A stretch of 64,000 nucleotides of DNA from an uncultured Ruminococcus sp. (GTDB lineage: Bacteria > Bacillota > Clostridia > Oscillospirales > Ruminococcaceae): positions 20,233-84,232 of the forward strand of contig CADAHS010000006.1 in NCBI GenBank assembly GCA_902787825.1, read 5' to 3'. The notes under the pieces are model-generated. The model saw only the letters and a list, made by a program, of their open reading frames with translations. It did no database searches and was not told the DNA's origin. Position 1 is the first letter of the stretch, and every line of letters begins with the position of its first letter. This document shows, piece by piece, positions 38,928-64,000 of this stretch. The position numbers and the translations under genes were made by a program.

Positions 38928-38951
38928 ACTATTAAAAAGGAGTATAAAGAT

Positions 38952-39443
38952 ATGGCTAAACAACGTTCAGTATTTGAATTAAACGGAATAACATATTATT
39001 CGCCTAAGGCTGCTGCAGACAATTGGAAAATGTCTCATCAGGCTGTTACATCTGCTTGTAAAGATGGAAGAATTGTTGGTGCTATTCAGGATTCCACTAA
39101 TCAATGGTGTATTCCAAATACATCTATGATGCCATTAAGTAAAGAAACCATACGCAAAATAATGATAATCACATTAGCGTTAAAAAACACACCTAACATT
39201 ATGATTTCAGGTTTAGAGAATTATGATGTACATAAGCTCTACGCATATTTAAGAGATACAAATTACATCAAACCATTTAACGAAAATAGCAGTAGAATAC
39301 CATATGAGGCGATATTAACAGAAAAGGGAATGGATCTTGTAATTGAAAGCAAAAAAATAGAAATGGATTGGACAAATATAGCTGTTCTACTTGTTCAATG
39401 TATTCCAAGTTTTCTTGAAATTGGAGCTGCTTTAGTACATTAA
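38952..39443 (+). CDS. Small protein with DNA-binding-like N-terminus
   Basis: 163 residues with an AAGGAG site 8 bases before the ATG. The N-terminal segment (ITYYSPKAAADNWKMSHQAVTSACKDGRI) resembles a MerR/excisionase-type winged helix. A hydrophobic segment lies near the C-terminus (IAVLLVQCIPSFLEIGAALV), which might be a membrane helix. It lies between the silent cassette and the recombinase. It could act as a directionality factor or regulator; I do not recognise the family. Confidence 0.65.
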   Translation: MAKQRSVFELNGITYYSPKAAADNWKMSHQAVTSACKDGRIVGAIQDSTNQWCIPNTSMMPLSKETIRKIMIITLALKNTPNIMISGLENYDVHKLYAYLRDTNYIKPFNENSSRIPYEAILTEKGMDLVIESKKIEMDWTNIAVLLVQCIPSFLEIGAALVH

Positions 39444-39489
39444 CTCTATTGGTTGTAGTGATGTTGGTACTACGAAAGGAGTATCAACT

Positions 39490-41680: not shown

Positions 41681-41724
41681 GCGGCTGGCAAGCGTAAATT
41701 TTCATTTATGAAAGGAGCGTTTCT

Positions 41725-48370: not shown

Positions 48371-48418
48371 ACCATATGAACGGTGTCGCATATACTATGA
48401 GCTAAGGAGAAAAGCTTT

Positions 48419-50767: not shown

Positions 50768-50797
50768 GCGTTATATCTTAACGATAAGGAGGCTTAA

Positions 50798-51934
50798 ATG
50801 AAATACAGCGAGACTGGTTTCCGCAGCTTGTATAAAAGATTTGCTGTCTTTGAGCTGAATGAGAATATACTGAAGTGCCTTGAAGTATTCCCTAGAAAAG
50901 ACGAGGCGAACTGCGTTATCGTTTATGGGTATATCGACCACGAGGCTGGAATGACGCTGGAATTGCTTTGCGCGGGCAAGCAGAATGGCAAAGAACTTGA
51001 GATGTTTGACGGTGATGACGAACGCAGAGCTGTCGCACGAATCGAAGGCGTTAAAGACCTTGAGTTTACTGTTCTCGGTGACGATGAGTGGCTAATGCAA
51101 AAGCACAGCAAGAAAATCGAAATGCTCAGCGGTTACAGCGTGAACGAGGAAATCGAGACCAGCCGCAGTTTTACATTCCTTGACGGCTGTCGTCACGAAT
51201 TCTTCCCCGATGATATAATGGTCGTAATTCTCAAAGACGATTTTGAACCCGAAGGATGCTGGGTCAATATTTTCGGGCTTGGTGAGCGTTGTTTCATCGG
51301 AAGACTGCTTAGCGAACCGAATCAGGATTTTGGTTGCCACATAGGCGATGAAATCAAATTCTATGCACAGAAACAGGACGATGATTCTGTAATGTGCTTT
51401 TCAGACGGAACACCGCTAAATAGGTATTCTGCCGAAGACCTTGAAGATGGTCAGATGCTCGGGGACGCAGTTGCTAAATTCAAAGAAGAGCAGAATGAGA
51501 TCAATCTTTACAGGCTGCTCAATCTGCTTTGCGATAGCTATGTCTGGGTGCCGTGCACCGCAGTAATGGACAAGCAGGACGAAGAAAAAATACAGAAGAT
51601 GATCGAAGACGCAAACGGCGATACCGATTCAATAATCGGGCAAACTTTCACGACCTCGGAAAGCGTAAGACTGATTCCCGATATCCTGCAAAACGGCGAC
51701 GAGTTTTTCTTCCCGATATTTTCAAGTGCCGAGGAAATGGGGGAGTACGGCGAGCATTTTTCAAAGGTGCAGAAGCATATGCTTGAAGCAATGACACTCG
51801 CCCAGAACAACGAGAAAAACATTTCAGGCATGGTGCTCGACGCTTTCAGCGGTCAGTTTGTAATAAATACTGATTTGATGAAGCTGATCTGGGAAATGCA
51901 ATCAAAAGTTGAAACGAATGATTCTGATAAATAG
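50798..51934 (+). CDS. SseB-like protein with DUF2314-like middle
   Basis: 378 residues with an AAGGAGG site. A central stretch (VVILKDDFEPEGCWVNIFGLGERCFIGRL... HIGDEIKFY) looks like DUF2314. The C-terminal third (LCDSYVWVPCTAVMD..., VRLIPDILQNGDEFFFPIFSS, VLDAFSGQFVINTDLM) resembles SseB, a domain found in immunity and secretion-associated proteins. No catalytic motif is apparent. Its job is not known; it lies after the DUF262 gene and may be an accessory or unrelated passenger of the island. Confidence 0.65.
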   Translation: MKYSETGFRSLYKRFAVFELNENILKCLEVFPRKDEANCVIVYGYIDHEAGMTLELLCAGKQNGKELEMFDGDDERRAVARIEGVKDLEFTVLGDDEWLMQKHSKKIEMLSGYSVNEEIETSRSFTFLDGCRHEFFPDDIMVVILKDDFEPEGCWVNIFGLGERCFIGRLLSEPNQDFGCHIGDEIKFYAQKQDDDSVMCFSDGTPLNRYSAEDLEDGQMLGDAVAKFKEEQNEINLYRLLNLLCDSYVWVPCTAVMDKQDEEKIQKMIEDANGDTDSIIGQTFTTSESVRLIPDILQNGDEFFFPIFSSAEEMGEYGEHFSKVQKHMLEAMTLAQNNEKNISGMVLDAFSGQFVINTDLMKLIWEMQSKVETNDSDK

Positions 51935-51977
51935 TTTGCAAGTCTGCGTCAACCACCATTCACAATCGGAGGATACT

Positions 51978-53087
51978 ATGAATTACGACAATCTTCATGA
52001 GCTGATAAACAGGTATGAATCGAACCTTGATATGCTCTACAATGAGGAGCACAATGAGCTTTTCAAATGGCGTGCTTTCAAGACCTGGCAGGACGAATGG
52101 AACAAGTCTGAGTCGGCTTTCGGCAGCTTTGCGGACAGATTTACTGCCGCCAAGAAGGACTTTGATCTGTTCATCGACAACAGCCGTATGCACCCAAGCA
52201 CAGGTGTTGTCAAGCTGTGGGAGAAAGAGCCGCAGACGGTCGAATCGCTGTTTAAAGATGTCCTGTTCGCACCCGCCGAAAGCATAGCAGATGTTCAGAA
52301 TAATATGGATCGTTTCCTTGACGGATATGAATTGCTTCGTCAGAAATACTTTCACGGCAACTGGTCGTATAAGCAGGACAGGCACTCTGCATCTGTTTTC
52401 CTCGCAGTTAATGTGCCCGAAAGAAACTTCGTGTTCAAAAGCACAGAGGCATCAAAAATGGCAAAGTACACCGAGTTCGGACTTGATATAGGCTCGGGAA
52501 CGAGTTTCAGACTGCCTAACTATTACGCACTCTGTGAGGAGATAGTTAATGCCCTGAAAGAACATACGACTTTGCTGGAAAAGCATTTTGCAAGGCTCAC
52601 TGATAAGTGCTTCGTTGATGAGAGTCTGCATCTTCTGGCGTTTGATCTGTTGTATTGCTGCAAGGCGTATAATTTCTATAAAGGACTCGTTGAGCCTGTT
52701 ACAAGAAAGACGATCAAAAAGAAGATAAAGCCTGAAGTATCTGCCGAGGAGCTTGCAAGGCTTGAAGCAGAACGGCTCGAAAAGATCAATGATATCCAAG
52801 CGGAGATCGGCGATCTCGAAAATGCGTGCTCTGAATATTCCGACATCTCGCTGATCGATGTTCAGGTCGAATTCAAACCGTACGGAACTGGCGTGGTCGT
52901 TGAGCAGGATGTTGATAGGATAACTGTCAGGTTTGCAGAAACCGAAAAGAGATTTATGCTCAACTCTAAGTATAAAGTCCGCCCGAAATTTGAAAATGAC
53001 GACGAGATAGTTTCAGCGTTTACCGAGTATGCTGATATTGTTGAAAGAATAAAGCAGTTGAGAAGCAAGCTTAATAATCTGATGTGA
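51978..53087 (+). CDS. Hypothetical protein with C-terminal SH3-like segment
   Basis: 369 residues from the ATG at 51978, which has a GGAGG site. The N-terminal half contains WRAFKTWQDEW and NFVFKSTEASKMAKYT, which recall the N-terminal DNA-binding part of some McrB-type proteins. A coiled coil lies near residues 245-285. The final part (VEFKPYGTGVVVEQDVDRITVRFAE) looks like a small beta-barrel of the KOW/Tudor kind. I cannot name the family. Confidence 0.65.
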   Translation: MNYDNLHELINRYESNLDMLYNEEHNELFKWRAFKTWQDEWNKSESAFGSFADRFTAAKKDFDLFIDNSRMHPSTGVVKLWEKEPQTVESLFKDVLFAPAESIADVQNNMDRFLDGYELLRQKYFHGNWSYKQDRHSASVFLAVNVPERNFVFKSTEASKMAKYTEFGLDIGSGTSFRLPNYYALCEEIVNALKEHTTLLEKHFARLTDKCFVDESLHLLAFDLLYCCKAYNFYKGLVEPVTRKTIKKKIKPEVSAEELARLEAERLEKINDIQAEIGDLENACSEYSDISLIDVQVEFKPYGTGVVVEQDVDRITVRFAETEKRFMLNSKYKVRPKFENDDEIVSAFTEYADIVERIKQLRSKLNNLM

Positions 53088-53115
53088 GTTTAAACAGTAC
53101 AAGGAGGTCATGCAA

Positions 53116-53211
53116 ATGTTTAAAGGGATACTCGCAATAGTCATAGGTTTTCTGCTTGTCAAAGCGTTCTGCGATACCGTACTTGATATCTTCTTTAAGA
53201 ACAAGAAATGA
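53116..53211 (+). CDS. Very small single-helix membrane protein
   Basis: 31 residues from the ATG at 53116, 8 bases after a perfect AAGGAGG; an in-frame ATG at 53110 is too close to it. It is one hydrophobic helix (GILAIVIGFLLVKAF) followed by a charged tail ending in KNKK. The strong ribosome site supports expression. Small hydrophobic proteins of this size are often toxins or subunits of membrane complexes, but there is no family match. Confidence 0.5.
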   Translation: MFKGILAIVIGFLLVKAFCDTVLDIFFKNKK

Positions 53212-53300
53212 TCGCCGAGGTGGATTAGATAAACTTGGACATCTGGCAGAGCATCAGCGATGAAGACATCGAAAAAATGCGTGATAAAGTTGGTAAAACT

Positions 53301-54074
53301 ATGGATATAAAGACTGTTATTTCAGAAAAACTCAACGAGATAGAGCGGAAGGAGAATGTTCGGATACTGCACTGTGTTGAATCGGGCAGTCGTGCGTGGG
53401 GTTTTGAGTCGCCTGACAGCGACTACGATGTCAGGTTTATCTATGTGCGCCCGAAAGACTATTATCTCAAACTCGAAAGTACCCGTGATGTTATCGAGTG
53501 GCAGCTCGATGACACGCTTGACATCAACGGCTGGGATATTCAGAAAATGCTCAGGCTGCTTTATAAATCGAACCCGACCGTGTTTGAATGGAACAGCTCG
53601 CCGATAGTTTACAAGACCACTGATGACTGGTCGGCTGTCAGCAAAGTGATAGGCAGATACTTTCAGGTGAAGGCAGGACTTTACCACTATCTGAGTATGG
53701 CAAAGACTAATTATCACGCATATTTCAAAGGCGAGCAGGTCAAGCTCAAAAAGTATTTTTATGTTTTGCGACCGCTGCTTGCGTGCAGATATATAATCGA
53801 CAACGGCAAACCGCCGCCGATGCTTTTCAGCGAGCTTGTTGAGGCTGAACTTGAAAGCTCGATGAAGCCTTTTGTTGATGAAATCCTCAAAGCAAAAATG
53901 GCTACATCTGAGCTTGGAACGCAGCAGAAAAATGACGAAGTGATACGGTATTTTGAGAGCAGCATAGCTGAAATAGAAAAGGTCATCGCTGAATACGCCA
54001 ACGAAGAAAAGCCAAGTTGGGAGCCGCTTGATAAATGCTTCCTTGATATTTTGGGAGAAAATTCTTTCCCTTAA
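53301..54074 (+). CDS. COG3541-type nucleotidyltransferase
   Basis: 257 residues from the ATG at 53301, where the family normally begins (VISEKLNEIERKENVRILH). The nucleotidyltransferase signature ESGSRAWGFESPDSDYDVRF near residues 24-43 has the GS and two catalytic Asp residues. An open frame continues upstream to a TTG at 53235, but that part matches the end of the small gene at 63431-63625 and is probably a remnant of a second gene. The family transfers nucleotides, with unknown targets. Confidence 0.82.
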   Translation: MDIKTVISEKLNEIERKENVRILHCVESGSRAWGFESPDSDYDVRFIYVRPKDYYLKLESTRDVIEWQLDDTLDINGWDIQKMLRLLYKSNPTVFEWNSSPIVYKTTDDWSAVSKVIGRYFQVKAGLYHYLSMAKTNYHAYFKGEQVKLKKYFYVLRPLLACRYIIDNGKPPPMLFSELVEAELESSMKPFVDEILKAKMATSELGTQQKNDEVIRYFESSIAEIEKVIAEYANEEKPSWEPLDKCFLDILGENSFP

Positions 54075-54108
54075 CGGCTTGAACTTCCCCTTAATTTGTG
54101 GTATGTTT

Positions 54109-54498
54109 TTAATGGAAAGACAGTGGAGATATCGGGTGTATCTCGGTCGAGCTTTTTACCTTGATAATGTCCCAGCCGTTGCCGTTTTTGTGCAGGATGT
54201 CCACAGCACAGTACAGCCCGTCGTGCTCAAATGCCGCCTCAGCAATGTTTTCCGCACCTGATTGCATTAACTCATTGGTCTTGTGCACCATTTCGGTCTT
54301 GTCAAAAGAGAAATCCACAAGTGAGTATTCTCCGAAATAACTGCGTGCAAGATCGCCTACAAGCGTGCCGTTCGCCAACACCGACTCGGGCAGGATATCC
54401 TCAGCCTCTTGCGGCTTGTAAGCATCGAGCCACAGCATCTTCGGACACTGTATGCCCTTGCAGTATCTCGATTTGCTCAGATCTGTGATATTTGACAT
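54109..54498 (-). pseudogene. DUF2779-like protein, truncated to its N-terminus
   Basis: 129 residues. The start (LSKSRYCKGIQCPKMLWLDAYKPQ) is the hallmark N-terminus of DUF2779 proteins, which are normally about 500 residues or more and carry a PD-(D/E)xK nuclease core; here VDILHKNGNGWDIIKVKSST holds the D-x-K-like end of that core. The frame stops soon after, so about three quarters of the protein is missing. It overlaps the gene upstream by 22 bases. Confidence 0.75.
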
Positions 54499-54713
54499 AT
54501 TATCAACCTCTTTTCGTCCTTGGTGTCCTGTTGCTCGAGGTATTCATCAACAGCGGCATCGGCTTTCTGCTTGGCTTTTATATTAGCATACTGCCTGTTT
54601 TCCGCACACCACGAGCAGCCGCCGTGGTTGCGGCAGTAGGCATCAAAAGCCTTGGCTCCACGATACTGTTTGCGGTGCTCCTTACCGCTGGCGATAGCTT
54701 TGTCGAAACTCAT
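54477..54713 (-). CDS. Small cysteine-containing protein
   Basis: 78 residues with an AAAGGAGG site. A conserved-looking N-terminal block (MSFDKAIASGKEHRKQYRGAK) is followed by CRNHGGCSWCAENR, whose three cysteines and histidine could bind zinc. Similar small proteins occur in gut Firmicutes phages and mobile elements; no function is known. A consensus minus-strand promoter lies at 54748-54776, and a WYL-type operator further upstream. Confidence 0.65.
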   Translation of the reverse strand: MSFDKAIASGKEHRKQYRGAKAFDAYCRNHGGCSWCAENRQYANIKAKQKADAAVDEYLEQQDTKDEKRLIICQISQI

Positions 54714-54747
54714 ATTGCGATGCCTCCTTTCCTGTGGTTAGCATTAC

Positions 54748-54776
54748 ATTATATACCACAACCCCCGGTATGTCAA
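54748..54776 (-). promoter_or_regulatory. Consensus promoter of the 54477 gene pair
   Basis: Minus strand: TTGACA (54771-54776), 17-base spacer, TATAAT (54748-54753). Confidence 0.8.
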
Positions 54777-54854
54777 GTAGCTTTGCGGTATATCCTATTC
54801 ATTTGCCATTCTTATAGGTCACTCCTCCTTTTCTGTCTGTATCATACCACACCC

Positions 54855-54877
54855 GATGTACCAAATATGGGATGTCG
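54855..54877 (-). promoter_or_regulatory. Operator copy 1 (probable WYL-regulator site)
   Basis: On the minus strand CGACATCCCAT followed by a T-rich base pair and TTTGGTACATC. Matches 22 of 23 positions of the site at 55984-56006. A TATGAT sits at the same distance after each copy. Confidence 0.65.
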
Positions 54878-54894
54878 CCCGCACCAGAACTCGA

Positions 54895-54921
54895 CAAAAA
54901 AAGAACCGCACGAGGCGGTTC
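54895..54921 (-). terminator. Terminator of the WYL regulator gene
   Basis: Minus strand: arms GAACCGC and GCGGTTC, followed by TTTTTTT. Confidence 0.8.
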
Positions 54922-54929
54922 AAAGAATA

Positions 54930-55910
54930 TCAGTTTTCATATTTCTCAGCCGCACTTTTCAGTGCGGCTTTTATTTTGTCCACAAGTTCCTGCGGCTTGG
55001 TAACTCTCACAAACTGCGCATACTGCAATGCCCACAGCAGCATCGCATTCGGACTTGACTTTACCGTTACCGCAAGCTGCTCGCCCTGCTTCCTTATGAT
55101 TATATCCTCACCGAACCAGTCGATGACCTGGTCGATTATTCCCTCATCAGCGATAAACTCCACATACTCGGGCTTGTCGGTGTACATATACGGCATCGCA
55201 GTCGAAAGCTCCTTGTAGTTTATGCCCTTCTCAAAGCCCTCGATAGTCGTTATCGGCACGAGCTTCTCCTGCGTGATCTGCATATTTGTTATCCTGTCAA
55301 GACGGTAGTAGCCCATGTTCTTCCACTGCTCGCTGCGTGCCATAAGATAATAGCGCTGGTTGTGAACAACGAGCTGATACGGGCTGACGGTGTGCGGTTT
55401 TGTCTTGTGAAGCTTTTTGTCTGCACCGTACTTGTTGTAGTCAAACGTCACCTGTTTTTTGTTTCTGATAGCGTCGTCGATAAGCTCAATGTTGTAAAAC
55501 AGCTGCTTGTTTTTTGTCTTGTTCCATTCACCGACAGAGTGTATGTACTTGACGTTTGAGCGAAAGTATTTGTTCGACAGGCCGCACAGCTTTTCGATCA
55601 GATCCTTTGAGTATTTTGCGGAAATGTGCCTGCTTGAAAGCACACCGTCAATAAGCAGCCGCAGCTCCGCATCGGTGAACTCACGCTCGGCAAGGTAACT
55701 GCCGACACGAGTGGATACGATCTCATAGCCAGCCTCTTTCAGAAGGGAGATATTCCGCCTCACCGCCTTTCGCTCGATCTCGATCTCGTATTCGTTTTTG
55801 AGCATCTTTGCAATGCCCTCGTATGTCAGCAGATGCTGTTCGTCACTGTATTTGTGAAATATCTGCAATATCCGCAAAAGTGCGAGTTTTTTTGGTTCAA
55901 CGCTGGTCAT
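54930..55910 (-). CDS. WYL domain transcriptional regulator
   Basis: 326 residues. An N-terminal winged helix (about residues 8-65, including YEGIAKMLKNEYEIEIERKAVRRNISLLKEAGY) is followed by the WYL domain (about 140-225, with VVHNQRYYLMARSEQWKNMGYYRLDRITN carrying the conserved aromatic and Arg residues that contact ligand) and a WCX-type C-terminal part. WYL proteins often bind nucleic acids or nucleotides and regulate defence genes. Its own promoter contains a perfect palindrome (55949-55964) between the -35 and -10 regions, which suggests self-regulation. It is divergent from the AAA+ operon. Confidence 0.9.
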   Translation of the reverse strand: MTSVEPKKLALLRILQIFHKYSDEQHLLTYEGIAKMLKNEYEIEIERKAVRRNISLLKEAGYEIVSTRVGSYLAEREFTDAELRLLIDGVLSSRHISAKYSKDLIEKLCGLSNKYFRSNVKYIHSVGEWNKTKNKQLFYNIELIDDAIRNKKQVTFDYNKYGADKKLHKTKPHTVSPYQLVVHNQRYYLMARSEQWKNMGYYRLDRITNMQITQEKLVPITTIEGFEKGINYKELSTAMPYMYTDKPEYVEFIADEGIIDQVIDWFGEDIIIRKQGEQLAVTVKSSPNAMLLWALQYAQFVRVTKPQELVDKIKAALKSAAEKYEN

Positions 55911-55944
55911 ATCCTTTTACCCTCCAATCATTTTATACTGCACC

Positions 55945-55973
55945 CATTGTACCATATTTGGTACATAAAATCA
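55945..55973 (-). promoter_or_regulatory. Promoter of the WYL gene with palindromic operator
   Basis: Minus strand: TTGATT, 17-base spacer, TACAAT (approximately 55945-55973). The palindrome GTACCATATTTGGTAC at 55949-55964 fills the spacer and touches the -10, as expected for a self-repressing site. Confidence 0.65.
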
Positions 55974-55983
55974 AGTATGTTCC

Positions 55984-56006
55984 GACATCCCATTTTTGGT
56001 ACATCA
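55984..56006 (+). promoter_or_regulatory. Operator copy 2, before the AAA+ operon
   Basis: CGACATCCCAT then a T-rich base and TTTGGTACATC, followed after 8 bases by TATGAT (56015-56020), a -10 lacking a good -35. Such promoters usually need an activator, so the WYL protein may activate here. Inverted near-identical copy at 54855-54877. Confidence 0.65.
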
Positions 56007-56061
56007 CCCGTGCTATGATTATGACAGAAGAAAACAACACGAGTCTGACAGGAGGTACAAA

Positions 56062-58077
56062 ATGATCTGTTACAAAGTATTTTTCAAGCTTGATAAGCCT
56101 ATCCCTATGATAAAAAATGAGTACGGCGGGCGTGAGTGTGACGGAGATGTAGCAGAGCGAATTTCATTGGGATTCAACGCTTATAATGAGAAGCATTTCC
56201 GCAAGAGCTGCGCATTCGTTTACTCATACTCATGTGTTCGCAGAAGACTTGGGATCGCTGTTGTCATCGATGAGGATATCAGTATCGCCGAGCTTATCAG
56301 AGATGTTGCCGACAGGGCGGAACTGAACGGCATATATGAATATGAAGAAATAACTCTCAATGCAATGCATTGTTACGGTACTCAGGCTAGCAGTTTAAGT
56401 CGCAAGTCATTTGATTATGACAGCCGTGTCCTGGAAGAATTCGCTGTCGAAGAATACTTACATAGGGGGTATTCTATTGAACGGATAGCTAAACACCGCA
56501 CCCGTTCCGAGGTGGAAAAGCGTGCTGCGTTCGGACTATATGACAGAGATTTTCTGCCCGAGCTTGACCGCATAAAGATCCCCCGTGCGATAGAAGGTGC
56601 AGGCGGTCACCCCGTACACTACATCATTAAGGGAAGTCACGCAAAAAAAGCGTGCGAAGATCTTATATCTTCACTTTATGAAAACAAAAGGCTGCGGTCA
56701 AAGCGTTTTAACATTATAAATGACCATGAAGAGTATGACAGGAGTTACGGCCTTTGTTTCAGAACATCAAAGGGCTGCACTATGGTCGTTGACCTTACCT
56801 GCTATGTTCAGCAGCACGATGACGGTGCTGTTTATGATATCCTCAACAAAAGGCTGTATGACCTTATCAAATCAAACGCTCGTGATGTGCTGACAGTATT
56901 TTTGCTCCCTAACGGGTGTGATAAAGCAACCGAGCAGATCAAAAACAGCCTGCCCGAGCTTACTTTTATCGAAATAAGTGAACACCCCGTGATGAACAAC
57001 GACGCAAAGAAAGTCCTGCGTGCTTACTGTCGAAAGGACAAGGTCAAAGCTGACAAGGAGCTTCTTTCTATGGTCGCAAAGGACACGGGTTACAATGCGG
57101 CCAACCTGCGCAAAATGTATGACACCTGGTACGCCAACACTCTCAAGACCAAGGTCTATCCGCAGTATGCGGATTTCAAAAAGAACCTTGAATCAGAAAA
57201 GGACAAATTGCCGCAGGGAAGTGCTTATGAAAAGCTGACTGAAATGATCGGACTTGAAAAGGTCAAGCAGGTCATTGAACAGGCGGTGACCTATTCAAAG
57301 ATGCAGAAGCTGCTTGCCAACAGAGAAATGCCTAATGCAAGGCGTGCTATGCACATGGTCTTCACAGGCAATCCCGGCACAGCAAAAACCACAGTTGCAA
57401 GGCTTTTTGCGCAGATACTCAAGGATAACGAGGTGCTGTCTGTCGGCGACCTTATCGAGTGCGGACGCAGCGACCTAGTAGGCAGATTTGTCGGCTGGAC
57501 AGCAGTTCAGGTCAAAGAGATGTTCAAAAAGGCAAAAGGGTCGGTGCTTTTTATTGACGAGGCATATTCGCTGCTCGATGGCCGCAGCGGCAGCTTCGGC
57601 GACGAGGCGATAAACACTATCGTTCAGGAAATGGAGAACTGCCGTGAGGATATGGTCGTCATCTTTGCAGGCTACCCGAAGGAAATGAACGAGTTTGTCA
57701 GCCGAAATCCCGGTCTGCGTTCAAGAATATCGTTCTATGTCGATTTTGACAATTACAGCCCCGATGAGCTTTTTGACATCACAAAGCTCATCGCAAAAAA
57801 CAACGGCTTCAAGCTCGCCGACGATACCTGTGAAACGCTCCTGCCGATATTTGAAAACGCAATAGGCAGCGGTGATTTCGGCAACGGAAGATTTGCAAGA
57901 AATCTTGTCGAGCAGGCGCAGCTTGCGCAGTCGGTAAGACTATCAACGCTCGATTTTGATTCGCTTTTGGGTGATGATCTCGTAACGCTTTGCGCACAGG
58001 ATTTTTCGCAGATAAACACAGGCATCAGGCTCGAAGAAAACAGAAAACAAAGAATCGGATTTTCAAAGGTGGTATAG
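56062..58077 (+). CDS. CbbX/SpoVK-type AAA+ ATPase with large N-terminal region
   Basis: 671 residues from the ATG at 56062, which has an AGGAGG site. The N-terminal two thirds (residues 1-390) has no recognisable family; it contains a CFRTSKGCTMVVDLTCYVQQ region (about 230-250) that could be a nuclease-like or sensor fold. The C-terminal AAA+ domain is clear: GLEKVKQVIEQAV, Walker A GNPGTAKTT (about 436-444), Walker B VLFIDEAYSL (about 494-503) and the RNPGLRSRI arginine-finger region. CbbX/SpoVK proteins form hexamers and remodel partner proteins. It starts an operon with the phosphatase-like and SLOG genes and lies divergent to the WYL gene. Confidence 0.82.
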   Translation: MICYKVFFKLDKPIPMIKNEYGGRECDGDVAERISLGFNAYNEKHFRKSCAFVYSYSCVRRRLGIAVVIDEDISIAELIRDVADRAELNGIYEYEEITLNAMHCYGTQASSLSRKSFDYDSRVLEEFAVEEYLHRGYSIERIAKHRTRSEVEKRAAFGLYDRDFLPELDRIKIPRAIEGAGGHPVHYIIKGSHAKKACEDLISSLYENKRLRSKRFNIINDHEEYDRSYGLCFRTSKGCTMVVDLTCYVQQHDDGAVYDILNKRLYDLIKSNARDVLTVFLLPNGCDKATEQIKNSLPELTFIEISEHPVMNNDAKKVLRAYCRKDKVKADKELLSMVAKDTGYNAANLRKMYDTWYANTLKTKVYPQYADFKKNLESEKDKLPQGSAYEKLTEMIGLEKVKQVIEQAVTYSKMQKLLANREMPNARRAMHMVFTGNPGTAKTTVARLFAQILKDNEVLSVGDLIECGRSDLVGRFVGWTAVQVKEMFKKAKGSVLFIDEAYSLLDGRSGSFGDEAINTIVQEMENCREDMVVIFAGYPKEMNEFVSRNPGLRSRISFYVDFDNYSPDELFDITKLIAKNNGFKLADDTCETLLPIFENAIGSGDFGNGRFARNLVEQAQLAQSVRLSTLDFDSLLGDDLVTLCAQDFSQINTGIRLEENRKQRIGFSKVV

Positions 58078-58078
58078 T

Positions 58079-59371
58079 ATGAAACTGAGTGTACTTTCTA
58101 ACGACGATTTTCACATGAGGATAAACAATAATGAACTGAACGATAACACCGCAGTGATCTGTTTTTACAGCAGGGCTCTCGGCAAGTCCAAGGAGCTTAT
58201 GAAGTCGGATGCAAGAATGCTTTTGATCCCTTACGATGACTGGGATTATGATGATCTTGTCTGCGAGGACGACTATGATTTCTATTTTCCCAAAGCCCGC
58301 AAGACCGCTGAATTTATTCGCAGCGCTGTTGCAGACGGCTGTGAGCTGATCTGTCCCGACGACTGCGGCAGCACTGCGACTCTTGGCTGTGCAGCGGCGA
58401 TACTTGAATACTATGAGGGCAGGGGACTTGATATTTTCGCAAACGAAAGTTATATCCCAAACAAGCTGGTTTATCGGAAAGTGTACGATGCGCTCTGCGA
58501 AGTGTGCGGGCAAAAACCCCAACCCGAAAACACTATCGAGATAGCAATAACCTCATGCAACAAGATGCAGAAGCTTATCCACAGCGGAAAGCTCGGCGAA
58601 GATACGGCGGTCATCAGCTTTCACGATATCGCCGAGAGCCCGATCTATTTCGGCGGCACAAAGGCAAGCGTTTTAACGCTCGCTCTTGACGACCTCGGAC
58701 CGACTGAAATATCCGAACGCTATGGCAGCCTGACACGGTATTTCACCAAGGCGGGAATGCTTGCACAGTTCATTGTTGCTATGGCGGCAAAAGGCAAAAA
58801 GATAATCTGTCAGTGTGAAATGGGAATGAGCCGCAGTGCCGCCTGTGCAGCTGCGATACTCCAGTATTACTGCGGAAGCGGCATCAGCATTTTCACCGAT
58901 AAAAGATACTGTCCCAACCGCATAGTCTTTCAGAAGCTTTTTGCCGCACTGTGCACCGCAGGCGTGCAGGCAGATGTTTCACAGCGCAGAACGCAGGCTG
59001 CAAAGCCGACCGTGTCAGAACTTTATGATGTTATGGCACAGGAATATGCCGATATCGTTAGCGGCAAAAACGACGGCTATGGCGGACTTATCAGCTATAT
59101 GATCGTCACTAAGGACAAGATACTGCACGGCTACGATCTGTGGAACAGCGACCTCAAAATATCGGTGCTCAAACACTTTTTTGAGCGATACGGCAAAGAT
59201 GATATCGAATATATCTGCCTCGGATACTGGAGAGAGCAAAGTATGCCTCAGCACGGTTCGGATATCGACACCGAAACAGGCGTGCTCTATTTCGGTAATT
59301 GCAGCGAGTACGGATATTTCAAAGCCATAAAATCAAAATACGGAGTCACACAGGAGGATTGGGTGGATTGA
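58079..59371 (+). CDS. Tandem dual-specificity phosphatase-like protein
   Basis: 430 residues, starting 2 bases after the AAA+ stop. Two similar domains of about 140 residues are followed by a C-terminal domain. The second domain has a complete cysteine-phosphatase P-loop, Cys246-x5-Arg252 (CEMGMSR), within a helix-rich stretch (SAACAAAILQYYCG). The first aligns with it but has Asp94 and Ala100 in place of the Cys and Arg, so it is probably a non-catalytic binding domain. The C-terminal part (about 305-430) is unassigned. Protein or nucleotide dephosphorylation is possible; the overlap with the SLOG gene points to a joint role. Confidence 0.72.
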   Translation: MKLSVLSNDDFHMRINNNELNDNTAVICFYSRALGKSKELMKSDARMLLIPYDDWDYDDLVCEDDYDFYFPKARKTAEFIRSAVADGCELICPDDCGSTATLGCAAAILEYYEGRGLDIFANESYIPNKLVYRKVYDALCEVCGQKPQPENTIEIAITSCNKMQKLIHSGKLGEDTAVISFHDIAESPIYFGGTKASVLTLALDDLGPTEISERYGSLTRYFTKAGMLAQFIVAMAAKGKKIICQCEMGMSRSAACAAAILQYYCGSGISIFTDKRYCPNRIVFQKLFAALCTAGVQADVSQRRTQAAKPTVSELYDVMAQEYADIVSGKNDGYGGLISYMIVTKDKILHGYDLWNSDLKISVLKHFFERYGKDDIEYICLGYWREQSMPQHGSDIDTETGVLYFGNCSEYGYFKAIKSKYGVTQEDWVD

Positions 59372-59772
59372 AAGTTTTTATCGGCGGCTCAAAAAGCATC
59401 AGACAGCTCACACCGTATATGCTCAGCATCATCGACAGGTTGTGCGAAAACGGTCACAGCATACTTGTCGGCGACTGCTTCGGCGTTGACAGGCTGGTGC
59501 AGGAGCATCTTGCGCATAAATGCTATGATAAGGTGACTGTGTTTGCAAGCGGCAGTACCGTCAGAAATAATGCAGGCGGTTTCCCTGTCTGTATGGTAGA
59601 TGCAGGCGAAACATCCGGCTTTGAGTTTTATCGCAAAAAGGACAGGGAAATGGCAGAGCGAGCCGATATTGCAGTGATGTTCTGGGACGGAAAAAGCAAA
59701 GGCACATGGCACAATATCATTGATATGCAGCGGCTCGGCAAAGTCACGCTGATAGTTGAAAAACGGAGGTAA
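59368..59772 (+). CDS. SLOG-family (DUF2493/YspA-like) nucleotide-binding protein
   Basis: 134 residues with a TTG start at 59368, fixed by AGGAGG about 10 bases upstream and by a TTGA overlap with the phosphatase stop. It is a Rossmann-like protein: LKVFIGGSKSI at the start and GDCFGVDRLVQEHL (about residues 38-51) are the SLOG ligand-binding signatures. SLOG proteins bind nucleotide-derived signals or cut nucleotide-linked groups, and occur widely in bacterial conflict systems. It is translationally coupled to the phosphatase-like gene. Confidence 0.8.
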   Translation: MKVFIGGSKSIRQLTPYMLSIIDRLCENGHSILVGDCFGVDRLVQEHLAHKCYDKVTVFASGSTVRNNAGGFPVCMVDAGETSGFEFYRKKDREMAERADIAVMFWDGKSKGTWHNIIDMQRLGKVTLIVEKRR

Positions 59773-59777
59773 AACTT

Positions 59778-60305
59778 ATGGCATTTCTGACAGATATGGT
59801 ACTGAGGAAATACATCCCTGAGCCGGGAATATCGCAGGTCGTCGTACCCGAGGGGATAACGAGAATAGGTGAATGCGCTTTTAAAGGCTGTACTGAACTT
59901 GAATCAGTGATCGTTCCCGAGGGAGTAACAAGGATCGGCTATTTAGCATTTAAGGACTGTATAAATCTGAAAACTATAAAGCTGCCCTGCAGCGTAGAAG
60001 AAATACAGGCATTTGCATTTGAAAACTGCAAAAGCTTGAGTGAAATAACTCTGCCGTGCCGATTGGGATCAATCGAACAGGGTGCATTCTGGGGATGTGA
60101 AAGCCTAAGATCTATTGAGATACCTGACAGCGTAAAGCAGATAGGGTATTTCCTCGATCTATGGTTTGACACAGTAGGAGCTTTTGAAAATTGCAAAAAT
60201 CTCAAAGAAATAAAGCTCGGCTTGGATTCAAATTTTGTGATATATGAAGGTGCATTGTGGACAAAGGATATGACCCAGAAGCTGTTTGAGTTTGCGGTGG
60301 AATGA
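59778..60305 (+). CDS. BspA-type leucine-rich repeat protein
   Basis: 175 residues with a GGAGG site. Five or so LRR_5 repeats of about 22 residues are visible (for example VPEGITRIGECAFKGCTELESV). There is no signal peptide, so it is probably cytoplasmic, unlike most BspA proteins. It ends at the start of the next gene. It might serve as a protein-binding partner of the operon. Confidence 0.85.
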   Translation: MAFLTDMVLRKYIPEPGISQVVVPEGITRIGECAFKGCTELESVIVPEGVTRIGYLAFKDCINLKTIKLPCSVEEIQAFAFENCKSLSEITLPCRLGSIEQGAFWGCESLRSIEIPDSVKQIGYFLDLWFDTVGAFENCKNLKEIKLGLDSNFVIYEGALWTKDMTQKLFEFAVE

Positions 60306-60325
60306 TGAAAAGAAAGGTGAATGCT

Positions 60326-60736
60326 ATGAATGAAAACAGAACTGTAAAAAAGGAGCTTTGCAGAGGCGTGTTCTGGGTAAATGACGATGTTATCATTTCC
60401 GTAAAGTATCCGTGTATAAGCGATGGCAAGCTGATATGTGCAGATAATGAAACCGAGGAAAAGCTCATGCGAAAGCTTGCCAACCACCAAAAGCTGTGGG
60501 AGGAGTTCCCACACTATATCACCGCAGGACTGCCGTTTAATTATCTTCCAAGAGGGCGTGTTGAGATACGCAAGGGCGGAAAGGCAATTATCTTCTGCTC
60601 GCCGCATATCTGCACCGAAGAAACAAAGCAGCTAATGACAGAAGAATTTGGTCTGACAGCTGAAAACGGCATAACACATATTTCGCTCAAAGCGGACGGC
60701 TCGGCGCATTATCGCTGTGCGCTTGATAACGAATAA
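60326..60736 (+). CDS. Hypothetical protein
   Basis: 136 residues. I chose the ATG at 60326 with AAAGGTG upstream; an in-frame ATG at 60302 overlapping the LRR stop is also possible. The protein is mixed alpha/beta and polar, with no membrane helix or known motif; TAENGITHISLKADGSAHYR near the end may be a small beta-hairpin. Last gene of the WYL-associated run. Confidence 0.6.
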   Translation: MNENRTVKKELCRGVFWVNDDVIISVKYPCISDGKLICADNETEEKLMRKLANHQKLWEEFPHYITAGLPFNYLPRGRVEIRKGGKAIIFCSPHICTEETKQLMTEEFGLTAENGITHISLKADGSAHYRCALDNE

Positions 60737-60824
60737 AATCCGGCTGTCTTTTGTAATACAAACGGTTAAAGCAAACTGGCTTGATGTGTTCGGATACTTT
60801 GAGTTGCTGTCATGAAAAAACCAC

Positions 60825-60853
60825 TTGACATTTCCACTCTCGTGAGTTATAAT
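60825..60853 (+). promoter_or_regulatory. Promoter of small-RNA cassette copy A
   Basis: TTGACA (60825-60830), 17-base spacer, TATAAT (60848-60853). The spacer contains CAC-TCTC-GTG. Confidence 0.85.
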
Positions 60854-60859
60854 AAGACC

Positions 60860-60968
60860 ACGAAAACGGCGTATCTTCGTTTGATACTCAAGTCCAGGGC
60901 ATTCGCAGTACCGCCATACTCGCATAAAAATTCAAGGCTGATGCAGTTTGATTTGCACCAGCCTTTTT
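60860..60968 (+). ncRNA. Small-RNA cassette, copy A
   Basis: Non-coding transcript of about 110 bases between a consensus promoter and the repeat-family terminator at 60934-60968. It contains a GTATC-TTCGTTT-GATAC hairpin. The promoter and the first 25 bases or so, as well as the terminator, match copy B at 63752-63902; the centre differs. Confidence 0.55.
60934..60968 (+). terminator. Repeat-family terminator of small RNA copy A
   Basis: AAGGCTGATGCAGTTTGA, then TTTGCACCAGCCTT and T residues. Confidence 0.85.
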
Positions 60969-61071
60969 CAATAAGGGCATTGCCATGCAAACCAAGCAGC
61001 TGATCTGATTTTCAAAATCCGTGCTTTTATCTATACAATTTCAAGCTCATTTGTAGCTTATACGACAAAGA

Positions 61072-61113
61072 TCCCCTGATGTGTAGTTTATACTACAGAT
61101 CAGGGAGTTTTTA
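61072..61113 (+). terminator. Long hairpin with T tail before the lipase-like gene
   Basis: Arms CCCTGAT and ATCAGGG enclosing GTAGT/ACTAC, followed by TTTTT. It probably insulates the downstream promoter. Confidence 0.75.
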
Positions 61114-61117
61114 TTTA

Positions 61118-61146
61118 TTGAAATAAGTTCAGAAGCGTGGTAGTAT
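61118..61146 (+). promoter_or_regulatory. Promoter of the lipase-like gene
   Basis: TTGAAA (61118-61123), 17-base spacer, TAGTAT (61141-61146). Confidence 0.6.
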
Positions 61147-61220
61147 ACTTTTGTAAGAGAATAAAAAGGTTTGCAAAAAACCGAGTGATAACCGCAGCAG
61201 CCAAAAAAGGAGAAAAGGAC

Positions 61221-63236
61221 ATGAAAAAAACGATCAAAACCAGGATCTTTACAGGATTGCTTTGTTTAGTCACCATTTTCACCACATCAGCAGCTACCGC
61301 TTCAAGCGCTTTTGCTGCCGAGCAGAGCGAAGTATCAGTTTCCAAATACAAAGAAGATACTATTTATTATTCCGATGAATATTTCAGACATTCGTCAACG
61401 CAATATGATCCGCATCTTGCAACGCTTTCCTGCATCATGACCAATTACTCCATACCGCTTGATAATCCTTCAAGCACTGACGATGAGCATTGGTATCAAA
61501 GCCAGCCCGAAAGGCTCCAAGGATTTTTTAACAACATCGGCTTTGAAGATTTCAAGTGCAACAAGGATTATACGTCAAGAAGCGCATTTGATACCATCGG
61601 AGTCGCAGCAGCCTGCAAGAAAGTTGATGACTGCACAGTCATCGGTGTGGGTATCCGTTCAGGCGGATACTTCCGTGAATGGGCAAACAACGTCTGGCTT
61701 GGCGACGGAACAAAGTCCGACTATATGCATGAGGGTTGGTATAACGCCGCAAATAAGACAATTGAATTTCTCAAGGAGTATATCTCTTCCAAGGAGATCA
61801 CCGGAAAGATCAAAGTCTGGATCGCAGGATTTTCCCGAGGCGGAGCAACAGCAAACCTCACAGCAGGTCTGCTGGATAACGCATTAGAGAATAATGCAAA
61901 GGTCCTTTCGGACGAAACGACCCTTACCCGTGACGACTTGTATGCCTATACCTTTGAAGCTCCTCAGGGCGCAAATTACAATTCCAAGACAGTCAAGCTG
62001 CCCGGAGATCCGATCTACAACAACATCTGGAACGTCGTAAATCCTAACGATCTTGTACCCAAGGTCGCTATGAGAGAGTACGGCTTCACAAGATTCGGCA
62101 CAGACAAATTCATCACAACAAAGTTTTACGATCCCAAGAATTTTGAGTCTAACAGGGAAGTTTTCAAAGCCATGTATGCAGCCAACAGTCAGCCTGTAAA
62201 TGACTATAAAGCGGATAACTTTGAGATGTACGGAACTCCGTTCAAAAACGTCGCTGCGCTTGTTGCAGAACTGGTAACTATATTCCCCGTCGGAGCAGCG
62301 GATATCATCAGCCAGATCCATGACGGTAAGATCCCTGCCTTAGAAAAGGACAATACAAAAGCAAATTATGATGCAAACATCTCAACATATCTTCTGCTTG
62401 AGGAGATTACAAAGAATATAGGCAGCCGTGACGATTACAGCAGCAAGTATCAGAGCGGAGTATCCAATTTCCTGCTTGTACTGATGAACGATGTAGGTAA
62501 AATGAGAGAAAGTGAATTGTACTGTATCTTGAGCAAGCTTCTGCTGTGTGCAACTGTCTTCTCGTTACCGGGTATGGATTACCTGCCGGAGAAAATCATC
62601 AAAGATGCAATGCCGGAAAGTATCGACATCGACAAGATCATTGATTCGATCAGCCCACTGCTGGGAGTCATCTTCAAAGCTTACTGGGAGCGCCCGAATG
62701 AACTGATCTCCATAGGACTTTATATCTCAGAGATATTCCAGAATCATGATAACCAGGTAAACATTGCTCATCTGGAAGCTCAGGACAGCTATTATGTGGA
62801 CTCTTATAATCTCAGTCACCAGACTCAAATGCCGGTTGTTGAATTAAGAGACTGTGCAGATTTCGGACGTATCTCGCTCAAGGATTATAACGATATCGGA
62901 CTGCTTGATGAAAGCGGCAGTGAAAATCTTGTCAGCGTCAGCGAAGCAAAGGCTCAGAAGAGCACTGTCAACAGCTGTGCCGACGGTATCGCCGTAGGCT
63001 ACTATTCTTATGCGACAGAAGAAAAGATGGAGTTGTTCGTACCTGTAAATTGCAAATACATTCTGAATATGAAAGGCTATTCCATCAAGCCGTATCATAC
63101 AGCATCATTCGATGCGAGCTATCAGTCTGTCAGCGCTAACAGCGACCACCGCATAAGAGACGAAAAAGGCCAATTTTCGGACTGGTATTTTATGAATACC
63201 GATTTCCTGCAGCGCAGCATCGATATGAACCGGTAA
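61221..63236 (+). CDS. Secreted lipase-like alpha/beta hydrolase
   Basis: 671 residues from the ATG at 61221, which has an AAAAGGAG site. A signal peptide covers about residues 1-33 (ending near ASSAFAA). The nucleophile elbow GFSRGG (the G-x-S-x-G motif, with Ser near residue 205) follows strand IKVWIA, as in the lipase class 3 family. A catalytic Asp is probably in NVVNPNDLVPKV near residue 275; the His is not obvious. It probably acts on lipids or glycolipids outside the cell. Monocistronic with a terminator at 63264-63296. Confidence 0.8.
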   Translation: MKKTIKTRIFTGLLCLVTIFTTSAATASSAFAAEQSEVSVSKYKEDTIYYSDEYFRHSSTQYDPHLATLSCIMTNYSIPLDNPSSTDDEHWYQSQPERLQGFFNNIGFEDFKCNKDYTSRSAFDTIGVAAACKKVDDCTVIGVGIRSGGYFREWANNVWLGDGTKSDYMHEGWYNAANKTIEFLKEYISSKEITGKIKVWIAGFSRGGATANLTAGLLDNALENNAKVLSDETTLTRDDLYAYTFEAPQGANYNSKTVKLPGDPIYNNIWNVVNPNDLVPKVAMREYGFTRFGTDKFITTKFYDPKNFESNREVFKAMYAANSQPVNDYKADNFEMYGTPFKNVAALVAELVTIFPVGAADIISQIHDGKIPALEKDNTKANYDANISTYLLLEEITKNIGSRDDYSSKYQSGVSNFLLVLMNDVGKMRESELYCILSKLLLCATVFSLPGMDYLPEKIIKDAMPESIDIDKIIDSISPLLGVIFKAYWERPNELISIGLYISEIFQNHDNQVNIAHLEAQDSYYVDSYNLSHQTQMPVVELRDCADFGRISLKDYNDIGLLDESGSENLVSVSEAKAQKSTVNSCADGIAVGYYSYATEEKMELFVPVNCKYILNMKGYSIKPYHTASFDASYQSVSANSDHRIRDEKGQFSDWYFMNTDFLQRSIDMNR

Positions 63237-63263
63237 CAGCCAGCAGGGCAGCATAACAGAATA

Positions 63264-63296
63264 AGAGCGTCTGCGAATAATGCAGGCGCTTTTTTG
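63264..63296 (+). terminator. Terminator after the lipase-like gene
   Basis: Arms AGCGTCTGC and GCAGGCGCT, followed by TTTTTT. Confidence 0.85.
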
Positions 63297-63361
63297 TTAT
63301 AGCAGTGAACTGCCGAAAGAGCGTTTGTAAGCACTTTCCGATTATTTCTCAGCAAAAACAG

Positions 63362-63390
63362 ATGACAAAATCAGAAAGGTATGATATAAT
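63362..63390 (+). promoter_or_regulatory. Promoter of the 63431 gene
   Basis: ATGACA (63362-63367), 17-base spacer, TATAAT (63385-63390). Confidence 0.65.
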
Positions 63391-63430
63391 GATGAAAAAC
63401 AATTAGTTGAATAATTGGAGGGGCATCACT

Positions 63431-63625
63431 ATGCTTAGAAAAATAGTTGACCTTACTGAGCCTGACAACGGCTGCGAGGGCTTTATGCCCGGGGAAGAGC
63501 CTTTGGTCACCCTCAAACTTGATGACGGCAGGGAAGTCAGGATACCCGATATGCTGGCGTACAAGAAGAACTGGGACATCGGGCAGAGCATAAGCGATGA
63601 GGATATCGAGAAATATGCAAGATGA
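63431..63625 (+). CDS. Small conserved-looking protein, unknown
   Basis: 64 residues with a GGAGGGG site. The fold appears to be a beta-rich domain (VTLKLDDGREVRIPDMLAYKK) plus a C-terminal helix (NWDIGQSISDEDIEKYAR). The last 15 or so residues match the region at 53235-53277 in front of the nucleotidyltransferase. Just after its stop, the DNA still resembles the start of that nucleotidyltransferase gene, but the coding frame is lost. Confidence 0.6.
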   Translation: MLRKIVDLTEPDNGCEGFMPGEEPLVTLKLDDGREVRIPDMLAYKKNWDIGQSISDEDIEKYAR

Positions 63626-63690
63626 AGTTGGTGAAACTATGTATAGTATCCATCAAACAGATATCAGAAAAAATCTGAACACAAATCCGG
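63611..63690 (+). pseudogene. Remnant of a nucleotidyltransferase gene start
   Basis: Similar to 53277-53340 (shared GATGAAGTTGGTGAAACTATG-like stretch, with TATCAGAAAAA...CTCAAC-like bases after it). The rest of the gene is absent, so this is a short decayed duplicate. Confidence 0.5.
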
Positions 63691-63716
63691 ATTCTTATTT
63701 CTGATGCGAAAACCAC

Positions 63717-63745
63717 TTGACATTTTCACTCCTGTGAGTTATAAT
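63717..63745 (+). promoter_or_regulatory. Promoter of small-RNA cassette copy B
   Basis: TTGACA (63717-63722), 17-base spacer, TATAAT (63740-63745). Spacer contains TCAC-TCCT-GTGA. Confidence 0.85.
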
Positions 63746-63751
63746 AAAGTC

Positions 63752-63902
63752 ACGAAAACAGCGTATCTGCGGGGAAAAATTAAACCAATGTAGTTATGCT
63801 GCCATTAGGTTCTATCGGCAACACCGTACAGGTTCAAGCCCCGATCGTTCGCAGAATAATAAATTAAGGCTGATGCAATTTGACTTGCACCAGCCTTGTT
63901 TA
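63752..63902 (+). ncRNA. Small-RNA cassette, copy B
   Basis: Non-coding transcript of about 150 bases ending in the repeat-family terminator. CTGCG near 63768 can pair with CGCAG near 63850, and GGTTCAAGCCC resembles a T-arm loop. The first 25 bases and the terminator match copy A. Confidence 0.5.
63866..63902 (+). terminator. Repeat-family terminator of small RNA copy B
   Basis: AAGGCTGATGCAATTTGA, then TTGCACCAGCCTT and T residues. Confidence 0.85.
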
Positions 63903-63904
63903 TT

Positions 63905-64000
63905 GTGCAACGAAAACCCCCAGCTATGCTGGGGGTTCAAAAAAGCTTTAGCTATGAGTAGAAAAACAAAACCTCCTATGATAGAATAAGAGTAGGTCTG
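63905..64000 (+). mobile_element. Probable left end of an IS200/IS605-family element (cut by the window edge)
   Basis: A perfect hairpin CCCCCAGC-TAT-GCTGGGGG lies near 63917-63936, followed by GGTTCAAAAAAGCTTTAGC and a purine-rich stretch running to the right edge. This layout (a sub-terminal hairpin close to an end with no terminal inverted repeats) fits IS200-like elements. The transposase gene would start beyond the window. Confidence 0.55.

Follow-up and report, generated by a model that had tools for sequence, protein, structure and literature searches.

A predicted WYL-controlled gene set in an uncultured Ruminococcus, probably part of an RNA-damage response that has lost its mending enzymes

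Introduction

Bacterial RNA repair, of which the Pnkp-Hen1 pathway is one form, counters ribotoxins (PMC4411300), and ideas about RNA repair and about defence therefore overlap. In the ARG-centred systems of PMC9503650 (section 3.8) a chaperone and a rhodanese/PTP-type phosphatase accompany repressors of the WYL or Nudix kind, and SseB is also named; according to the same paper KptA action on RNA ends leads to ADP-ribose cyclic phosphate, and SLOG domains of the YpsA-like type are predicted to sense or process derivatives of ADP-ribose. WYL proteins have been proposed as ligand-binding regulators of defence, a WYL repressor being cited (PMC4012209). Here we analyze a 64,000-nucleotide stretch of DNA (the window; assembly GCA_902787825.1, contig CADAHS010000006.1, positions 20,233 to 84,232) on contig 6 of a 2.59 Mb, 90% complete genome of an uncultured Ruminococcus sp., in which a WYL gene diverges from an operon encoding an AAA+ protein, a tandem phosphatase-like protein and a SLOG protein. 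This gene set, with its predicted WYL control, is probably part of an RNA-damage response whose mending enzymes have been lost from the genome, and with moderate confidence we read the locus as accessory to an inducible island for RNA damage (RNA/ADP-ribose repair). Its genes are as follows.

54930-55910, minus strand: WYL-domain transcription factor, 326 amino acids (Pfam WYL 52.3 bits against a curated cut-off of 21.8)
56062-58077, plus strand: AAA+ protein, 671 amino acids (Pfam and profile scores, predicted structure)
58079-59371, plus strand: tandem dual-specificity-phosphatase-like (DSP) protein, 430 amino acids (motifs, fold matches)
59368-59772, plus strand: SLOG (YAcAr-like) protein, 134 amino acids, with a TTG start overlapping the DSP stop (profile comparison)
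59778-60305, plus strand: LRR_5 (BspA-type) protein, 175 amino acids (Pfam LRR_5 116.8 bits)
60302-60736, plus strand: small conserved protein unk6, 144 amino acids, no Pfam match, relatives of which recur in loci with SLOG and DSP

The gene coordinates and orientations agree with the divergent arrangement given in a preliminary description of this DNA, and so does the TTGA overlap that it reported between DSP and SLOG; the 2-base gap that it placed between AAA+ and DSP is a single base. Packing is not confined to the first three genes that it singled out, and all five plus-strand genes are close together, the 4-base DSP/SLOG overlap being followed by a 5-base gap (SLOG/LRR) and a second 4-base overlap (LRR/unk6). 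For the AAA+ gene the ATG at 56062 was chosen as start because AGGAGG precedes it; an upstream TTG at 55996 is also open.

Results and Discussion

Association with Hen1-Pnkp in Related Genomes

Among 297 genomes of the family we find SLOG in 7, a PNKP ligase in 13, DSP in 19 and a match to the AAA+ N-terminal part in 15, and the six genomes in which the last match is strong (E below 1e-100) all contain SLOG. SLOG and Pnkp occur together in five genomes of the 297 where 0.31 would be expected (hypergeometric probability 1.4e-6), a figure that treats related genomes as independent and that is optimistic because the shared genomes are congeneric, in two genera. In each of these five SLOG lies within about 5 kb of Hen1-Pnkp (the SLOG of G306 is partial), and, counted by genus, DSP and Pnkp are found together in 4 of 126 (P 0.003). 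The hen1 and pnkp genes stand beside genes of the set in G028, G021, G098, G140, G218, G274 and G306. As judged from these counts the gene families appear next to Hen1-Pnkp more often than chance would place them, and we class them as a putative Pnkp-Hen1-linked accessory module. The available flanks of 17 SLOG loci (BLAST, E 1e-5, some of the matches weak; six of the loci are places already counted above) contain WYL in 10 cases, LRR in 9, AAA in 8, DSP in 7, and Hen1 and/or Pnkp, like unk6, in 5. The co-occurrence of AAA+, phosphatase-like and SLOG genes elsewhere, which the preliminary description had put forward as a check, is thus found both across family genomes and in SLOG loci. Gene order and orientation differ between lineages, which we take as evidence against simple descent of one block.

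G028 also carries a second, diverged copy of the locus (L055; WYL 78%, DSP 49%, SLOG 55% and AAA 57% identical) with operator-like sites of its own; no Hen1-Pnkp was found in the stretch fetched around it.

The gene directly upstream of SLOG, where it could be identified, is DSP in the window, L054, L055 and L056, unk6 in L110, L111, L099 and L142, AAA in L114 and RNase_T in L118. In L119 it is the RNA 2'-phosphotransferase KptA (E 3.6e-43), which overlaps the SLOG gene, and in L177 and plasmid records L195-L198 it is a ComF/PRTase gene; the latter order was seen in four of the six plasmid records opened, the other two having no ComF directly upstream. In R. albus AR67 a DSP fragment has a NADAR protein next to it, and RlaP lies beside Hen1-Pnkp in L146. 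The conserved partners Hen1-Pnkp, KptA, NADAR and RlaP point to RNA repair and ADP-ribose chemistry.

RlaP is also a neighbour in the window:

53235-54074, plus strand: RlaP, an RNA-repair pathway pol-beta nucleotidyltransferase (PF10127, 289 bits), whose membership of the module is uncertain

As a core member RlaP was rejected, being unmatched in the 17 SLOG loci and present only in L146 and L152. The latter (L152:7401-15942, G140) is a second RlaP association, a cluster of RlaP, a single-lobe DSP, WYL and a tandem AAA+. Separately, the SLOG protein beside KptA (L119:9135-11011) carries a C-terminal S-adenosylmethionine-lyase-like domain. The ComF/PRTase-SLOG pairs of L195-L198 are on plasmids of Agrobacterium, Xanthomonas, Acinetobacter and Listeria; the annotation of the SLOG gene in the Agrobacterium and Xanthomonas records is addiction module antidote, and the C-terminus of the Agrobacterium protein matches an antidote-type helix-turn-helix.

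Loss of the RNA-Repair Arm

In the G028 locus (L054) the site that we call operator A points at a GNAT gene, behind which come Hen1, Pnkp (Pfam Hen1_L and PNKP_ligase matched), a 198-amino acid open reading frame (ORF) and a DUF2779 protein. The order is the same in G021 (L094), where the GNAT and WYL genes are each in two frames and a 409-amino acid ORF lies between them. The alignment of the window with L054 falls into three blocks (54129-54517, 54735-54804 and 54814 onward), and the window lacks the GNAT and Hen1-Pnkp-198-amino acid stretches that lie between them. On this side the window has the following.

54109-54498, minus strand: 5' remnant of a DUF2779-containing gene, 123 of 497 codons homologous
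54477-54713, minus strand: 78-amino acid ORF m8, of unknown kind, in the hen1-pnkp place of G028 and G021 by alignment
54735-54804, minus strand: segment matching the region upstream of hen1 in G028 and G021, now before m8

The segment at 54735-54804 brings a TTGACA-17-TATAAT promoter (54776-54748) in front of m8. The remnant is 98% identical to the intact L054 gene and does not include the DUF2779 domain itself; the intact relative also shows a weak Cas4-like match. A preliminary claim of an oppositely oriented gene pair at 54109-54713 thus holds for orientation and operator, while the pair itself is a 78-amino acid ORF and a gene remnant. From these alignments we interpret 54109-54713 as what remains of the RNA-repair arm. 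The locus has no coding region for GNAT, Hen1 or Pnkp, and the accessory module would therefore be uncoupled from that ligase; because the remnant is still 98% identical, the loss is probably recent. A PNKP ligase was not found in the window genome, nor any Hen1 or Pnkp similarity in the window, and the locus as it stands is not a Pnkp-Hen1 system.

Before hen1 in L054 (L054:7568-7637) an inverted repeat, ACCACAAA...TTTGTGGT, surrounds a TTGATA-17-TAAAAT promoter and is perhaps the operator of a second regulator.

A Predicted Local WYL Regulon

The WYL protein is 97-98% identical to its counterparts in G028 and G008 and 78% identical to that of L055; its N-terminal HTH_11 match, 19 bits, is below the Pfam cut-off of 25. 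Three candidate operators lie at the locus.

54855-54877, minus strand: operator A, an inverted copy of the operator C 23-mer, which precedes the GNAT gene in G028 and G021
55948-55965, no strand: operator B, a perfect 18-bp palindrome, TGTACCA-N4-TGGTACA, within the spacer and -10 of the WYL promoter
55983-56005, plus strand: operator C, before the AAA+ operon, with its 18-mer at 55986-56003

The 23-mer of operator C matches inverted operator A at 22 of 23 positions, so that the recurrence noted in the preliminary description, ahead of the AAA+ operon and on the opposite side, is reproduced by sequence comparison. Elsewhere in the 64 kb this 23-mer (shifted by one base) has no place with five or fewer mismatches and a single one with six, which overlaps the palindrome. 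With at most one mismatch allowed, CCATNTTTGGTACATC has exactly three matches in its own genome (90% complete), all of them at the locus, in keeping with the earlier suggestion of local WYL sites on both of its sides. The same pattern gives 14 matches in 29 genomes of the genus, 13 at WYL loci in four genomes and one elsewhere, while the pattern written backwards as a control gives five in five other genomes and none in those four. The operator recurs well beyond chance. Operator matches with three mismatches that lie outside promoters in the window are found at 18520 and 57116. In L055, with its 78%-identical WYL protein, similar sites precede four ORFs, the WYL gene included, two with the same downstream layout, and a fifth, weaker match is outside promoters.

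The sites are positioned over promoters. On the minus strand the WYL promoter has TTGATT at 55974-55969 and TACAAT at 55951-55946. The operator C 18-mer stops 10 nucleotides short of an extended -10, TGCTATGAT (56011-56019), and operator A has the identical 10-nucleotide spacing to its extended -10, TGGTATGAT (54849-54841). Both outward promoters thus have an extended -10 (TGNTATGAT) and no -35 hexamer, with the sites between about -40 and -23. We infer that WYL commands a private, three-site regulon; since each of the three sites covers a core promoter, the protein more likely represses than activates. A role as clear activator, first suggested by the missing -35, appears less likely, the extended -10 elements and the site over the WYL gene's own promoter fitting repression better.

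The AAA+ Protein and Its N-Terminal Cassette

The AAA+ protein consists of a variable N-terminal domain (residues 1 to ~120), a degenerate AAA-like domain (~140-360) without Walker motifs by eye, and an active-looking CbbX/SpoVK-like AAA domain with AAA_lid_6 (~390-650) that has GNPGTAKT and FIDEA motifs and whose best fold match is CbbX. Equivalog membership in SpoVK, CbbX or EccA was tried and rejected, with scores of 255, 216 and 220 bits against cut-offs of 423, 459 and 467. A model built from five sequences (predicted local distance difference test, pLDDT, 68; C-terminal end unreliable) gives a Rossmann-type fold for ~140-360 and aligns over 480-740 columns with double-ring remodellers such as ClpC and Cdc48, at TM-scores of only 0.2-0.3.

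56114-57200 (end approximate), plus strand: divergent allelic segment of the AAA+ gene, by DNA comparison with G028

Within this segment DNA identity to G028, in 100-bp steps, is 42-79%, compared with 84-100% downstream and 78-91% in the preceding 200 bp. At the protein level identity rises from 41.6% (residues 20-260) through 74.8% (260-390) to 94.7% (390-671), and DSP, SLOG, LRR and the compared part of unk6 are 95.6-98.2% identical. G008 carries the G028-type cassette. In our reading the divergence reflects exchange between alleles, limited to the part of the protein with a putative role in recognition. For the cassette the ratio of nonsynonymous to synonymous substitution rates (dN/dS) is saturated between window and G028, where dS is undefined; the comparison of G028 with G008 gives 1.47 for a stretch of 101 codons and 0.53 for the 135 that follow, on too few changes to carry weight. 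The profile of the N-terminal part has no match among PDB sequences, and the part is matched in two plasmid records.

DSP and SLOG

In lobe 1 of the DSP protein Asp and Ala replace the catalytic Cys and Arg, lobe 2 retains CEMGMSR (CX5R), and a further C-terminal domain follows the two lobes (model pLDDT 85); a relative in L106 keeps CX5R in both lobes. Foldseek matches are to DUSPs (E 1.6e-4 to 1e-3), with Cdc14 among the longer fold matches, and the Pfam DSPc score of 23.8 bits is below the cut-off of 33.5. By CX5R motif and modelled DSP fold we assign the protein as a predicted dual-specificity phosphatase.

For the SLOG protein, the label given in the preliminary description is upheld by a single hhalign profile alignment against a pair of YAcAr-type SLOG proteins (97.8%, E 1.1e-12) and not by Pfam, where YAcAr does not match the window protein and reaches E 0.15 at best, in two of five family members. 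Against PDB sequences the single-sequence search gives a best E of 0.29 and the profile search nitrogenase chains at 0.011, taken as chance.

Relative to G028, dN/dS is 0.09 for WYL, 0.17 for DSP and 0.12 for the AAA C-terminal part, indicating purifying selection. Carriage of the module by phages was considered and rejected: 58 phage records hold SLOGs, all distant (below 60% identity), and one has a DSP match. Plasmid records number 98 for SLOG and one for DSP. YAcAr SLOG domains and RlaP have been noted in jumbo phages, without this gene set in the available text (PMC7824862).

Proposed Function and Alternatives

In the function that we propose, WYL is a dedicated local regulator with predicted sites inside the three promoters of its locus, to which it would bind and repress until it takes up an RNA-damage nucleotide, for example cyclic-phosphate RNA ends or an ADP-ribose derivative. 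Derepression would produce the tandem AAA+ protein, presumably ring-forming and with a first AAA-like domain lacking catalytic motifs; its N-terminal part, being an exchanged allelic cassette, is probably what selects the target (a ribotoxin, perhaps, or an RNA-protein complex that has stalled), and the active second AAA domain would then remodel that target. The pseudo/active phosphatase may remove a terminal phosphate from the damage-derived nucleotide and SLOG, translationally coupled to DSP through the overlap of their genes, may bind or cleave it, and the action of the two would also reset the WYL switch. In relatives, where the GNAT gene and then Hen1-Pnkp lie behind the same operator, the RNA would be sealed and methylated against re-cleavage.

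A more specific version is a self-resetting circuit in which the WYL repressor reads an ADP-ribose or cyclic-phosphate by-product of RNA cleavage, SLOG-DSP destroys the by-product, and the AAA+ protein with its exchangeable cassette pulls a ribotoxin or jammed tRNA/ribosome complex away for Hen1-Pnkp to seal and mark the RNA. Taken whole it is speculative and rather unlikely; were it true, the choice of target would evolve through the cassette much as it does through a restriction system's specificity subunit.

A number of observations count against assigning the locus to an RNA-damage island. Eight of the 13 Hen1-Pnkp loci of the family (G047, G063, G144, G145, G162, G166, G171 and G235) have no WYL, SLOG, AAA or DSP relative in the stretches fetched, which are 12-20 kb long and in some cases end at contig ends; an LRR protein is present in G171, and in G162 RlaP is next to Hen1. 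Within the genus three of five full-length Hen1-Pnkp loci show none of these relatives in the stretches fetched (G004, G010, G019; G010 at a contig end), those with the module being G021 (WYL) and G028 (all parts); of Hen1-Pnkp G008 has only a fragment, at a contig end. Two of the seven SLOG genomes, the window's included, have no Pnkp, the five shared genomes fall in just two genera, and DSP-WYL-LRR groups without Hen1-Pnkp are found in L106 (with unk6) and L107. The window genome is without RtcB and PNKP ligase and so has no known partner ligase (other ligase families were outside the search). The hen1 gene of G028 has a promoter-like sequence of its own, so that WYL may reach it only by read-through from GNAT. 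Finally, comparison with G028 gives a dN/dS of 0.53 for SLOG and of 0.38 for unk6, both from few changes, and DSP reaches 0.31 when compared with G008.

The foremost alternative is an anti-phage effector in which SLOG and WYL read an infection-derived nucleotide, the AAA+ protein acts in abortive infection by attacking or remodelling a target in phage or host, and Hen1-Pnkp is a mere neighbour. A stress- or phage-induced SLOG-signal system was also the view of the preliminary description; its tight operon stands, and the surroundings upstream in the window are of defence type, with type I restriction-modification (RM) and GmrSD, while no sign was seen of phage induction or of a SLOG second messenger. 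That upstream block, the exchanged AAA+ cassette, PDDEXK/UvrD genes in related loci (L099, L101, L102, L115, L143) and the prediction that YpsA-like SLOGs sense or process ADP-ribose derivatives (PMC9503650) all fit such an effector. Known defence systems match only weakly or generically, however: PADLOC returned no confident match to a known system, only generic CRISPR-associated WYL models (E 2.6e-25), a weak AbiEii match (1.5e-4) and a similarity to the IetA/TRIP13 ATPases that reaches 1.2e-8 at best. Type I RM was identified in the window and not among the scanned proteins of relatives, which cover part of those genes, and the recurring neighbours are RNA-repair enzymes. We consider this alternative possible but improbable; the evidence favours an RNA-damage/ADP-ribose response with a lost ligase arm over a free-standing phage-signalling system.

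A countermeasure to ADP-ribosylation, like the ARG-centred systems, with AAA+ as chaperone and SLOG-DSP processing released ADP-ribose, would suit the combination of WYL, PTP-superfamily phosphatase and chaperone-like parts in section 3.8 of PMC9503650, the SseB-domain gene at 50798-51934, SseB being named there, and the NADAR neighbour of the R. albus AR67 DSP fragment. With no ARG, macro or ART domain seen in the scanned window genes, and with a linkage to Hen1-Pnkp that is no feature of that section in its available text, we think it unlikely. That the genes left behind after loss of GNAT-Hen1-Pnkp are idle and not yet decayed is very improbable: it accords with the missing genes, the truncated DUF2779 gene, the 98% identity of a probably recent remnant, and the AAA+ gene of G008 and WYL and GNAT genes of G021 each split over two frames (possibly by assembly error), but WYL and the five operon genes are intact, dN/dS is low in WYL, DSP and the AAA C-terminal part, and related gene sets occur without Hen1-Pnkp nearby in L055 and in R. 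albus AR67, the latter in a genome without PNKP ligase.

Neighbouring Genes

The type I RM system at 36219-41680 comprises hsdM and two hsdS genes, one partial (37669-38286) and one full (40469-41680), with a tyrosine integrase gene at 39490-40476. The two hsdS regions are linked by inverted repeats (38896-38927 with 41012-41043, 97%; 38254-38369 with 41594-41709, 78%), which suggest a phase-variable specificity switch. A GmrSD-type protein (GmrSD_N plus GmrSD_C) is encoded at 48419-50767 in the upstream block, followed by the SseB-domain protein and a 392-amino acid unknown. An Rfam scan of 48000-64000 gave no match, and a tRNA scan of the window gave one tRNA-Leu, at 26430.

Comparison with Known Systems

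The locus shares with ARG-centred systems (PMC9503650, available part) a WYL regulator, a PTP-superfamily phosphatase and a chaperone-like component; it differs in that no ARG is seen, the chaperone would be a tandem AAA+ protein and RNA ligase genes are linked. Like CbbX, SpoVK and EccA the AAA+ protein has a C-terminal AAA domain with AAA_lid_6, and it departs from them in its variable N-terminus and in having a degenerate AAA-like domain besides. One lobe of Cdc14 is inactive, and the window DSP likewise has two DSP lobes with CX5R only in the second; it has an added C-terminal domain, identity is 9-11% and the TM-score about 0.25 over the alignments, and single-domain DUSPs score as well. 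The window SLOG has the same WDGxSxGT signature as YspA/YAcAr SLOGs and the plasmid ComF-SLOG pairs and is 38-44% identical to the 20 plasmid SLOGs that were listed, its partner being a phosphatase instead of a PRTase.

Our literature search returned no paper joining WYL or SLOG with Hen1-Pnkp, the main survey of RNA-repair systems, which may list some partners, being outside it. The available part of PMC4411300 makes no mention of WYL, AAA+, DSP, SLOG or LRR partners for Pnkp-Hen1, and we found in the available RNA-repair literature no statement on what induces this pathway or which proteins clear the damaging agent. For the former the locus offers a concrete candidate switch, one WYL protein with three sites in one locus, and it further offers a candidate recognition protein with a swappable end and a SLOG family whose ties with RNA-repair enzymes run by way of two different partners, Hen1-Pnkp and, in a single locus, KptA. 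Compared with bacterial Pnkp-Hen1 repair (PMC4411300), the window genome is without a PNKP ligase, whereas the same WYL-operator locus in G028 and G021 holds Hen1 and Pnkp intact.

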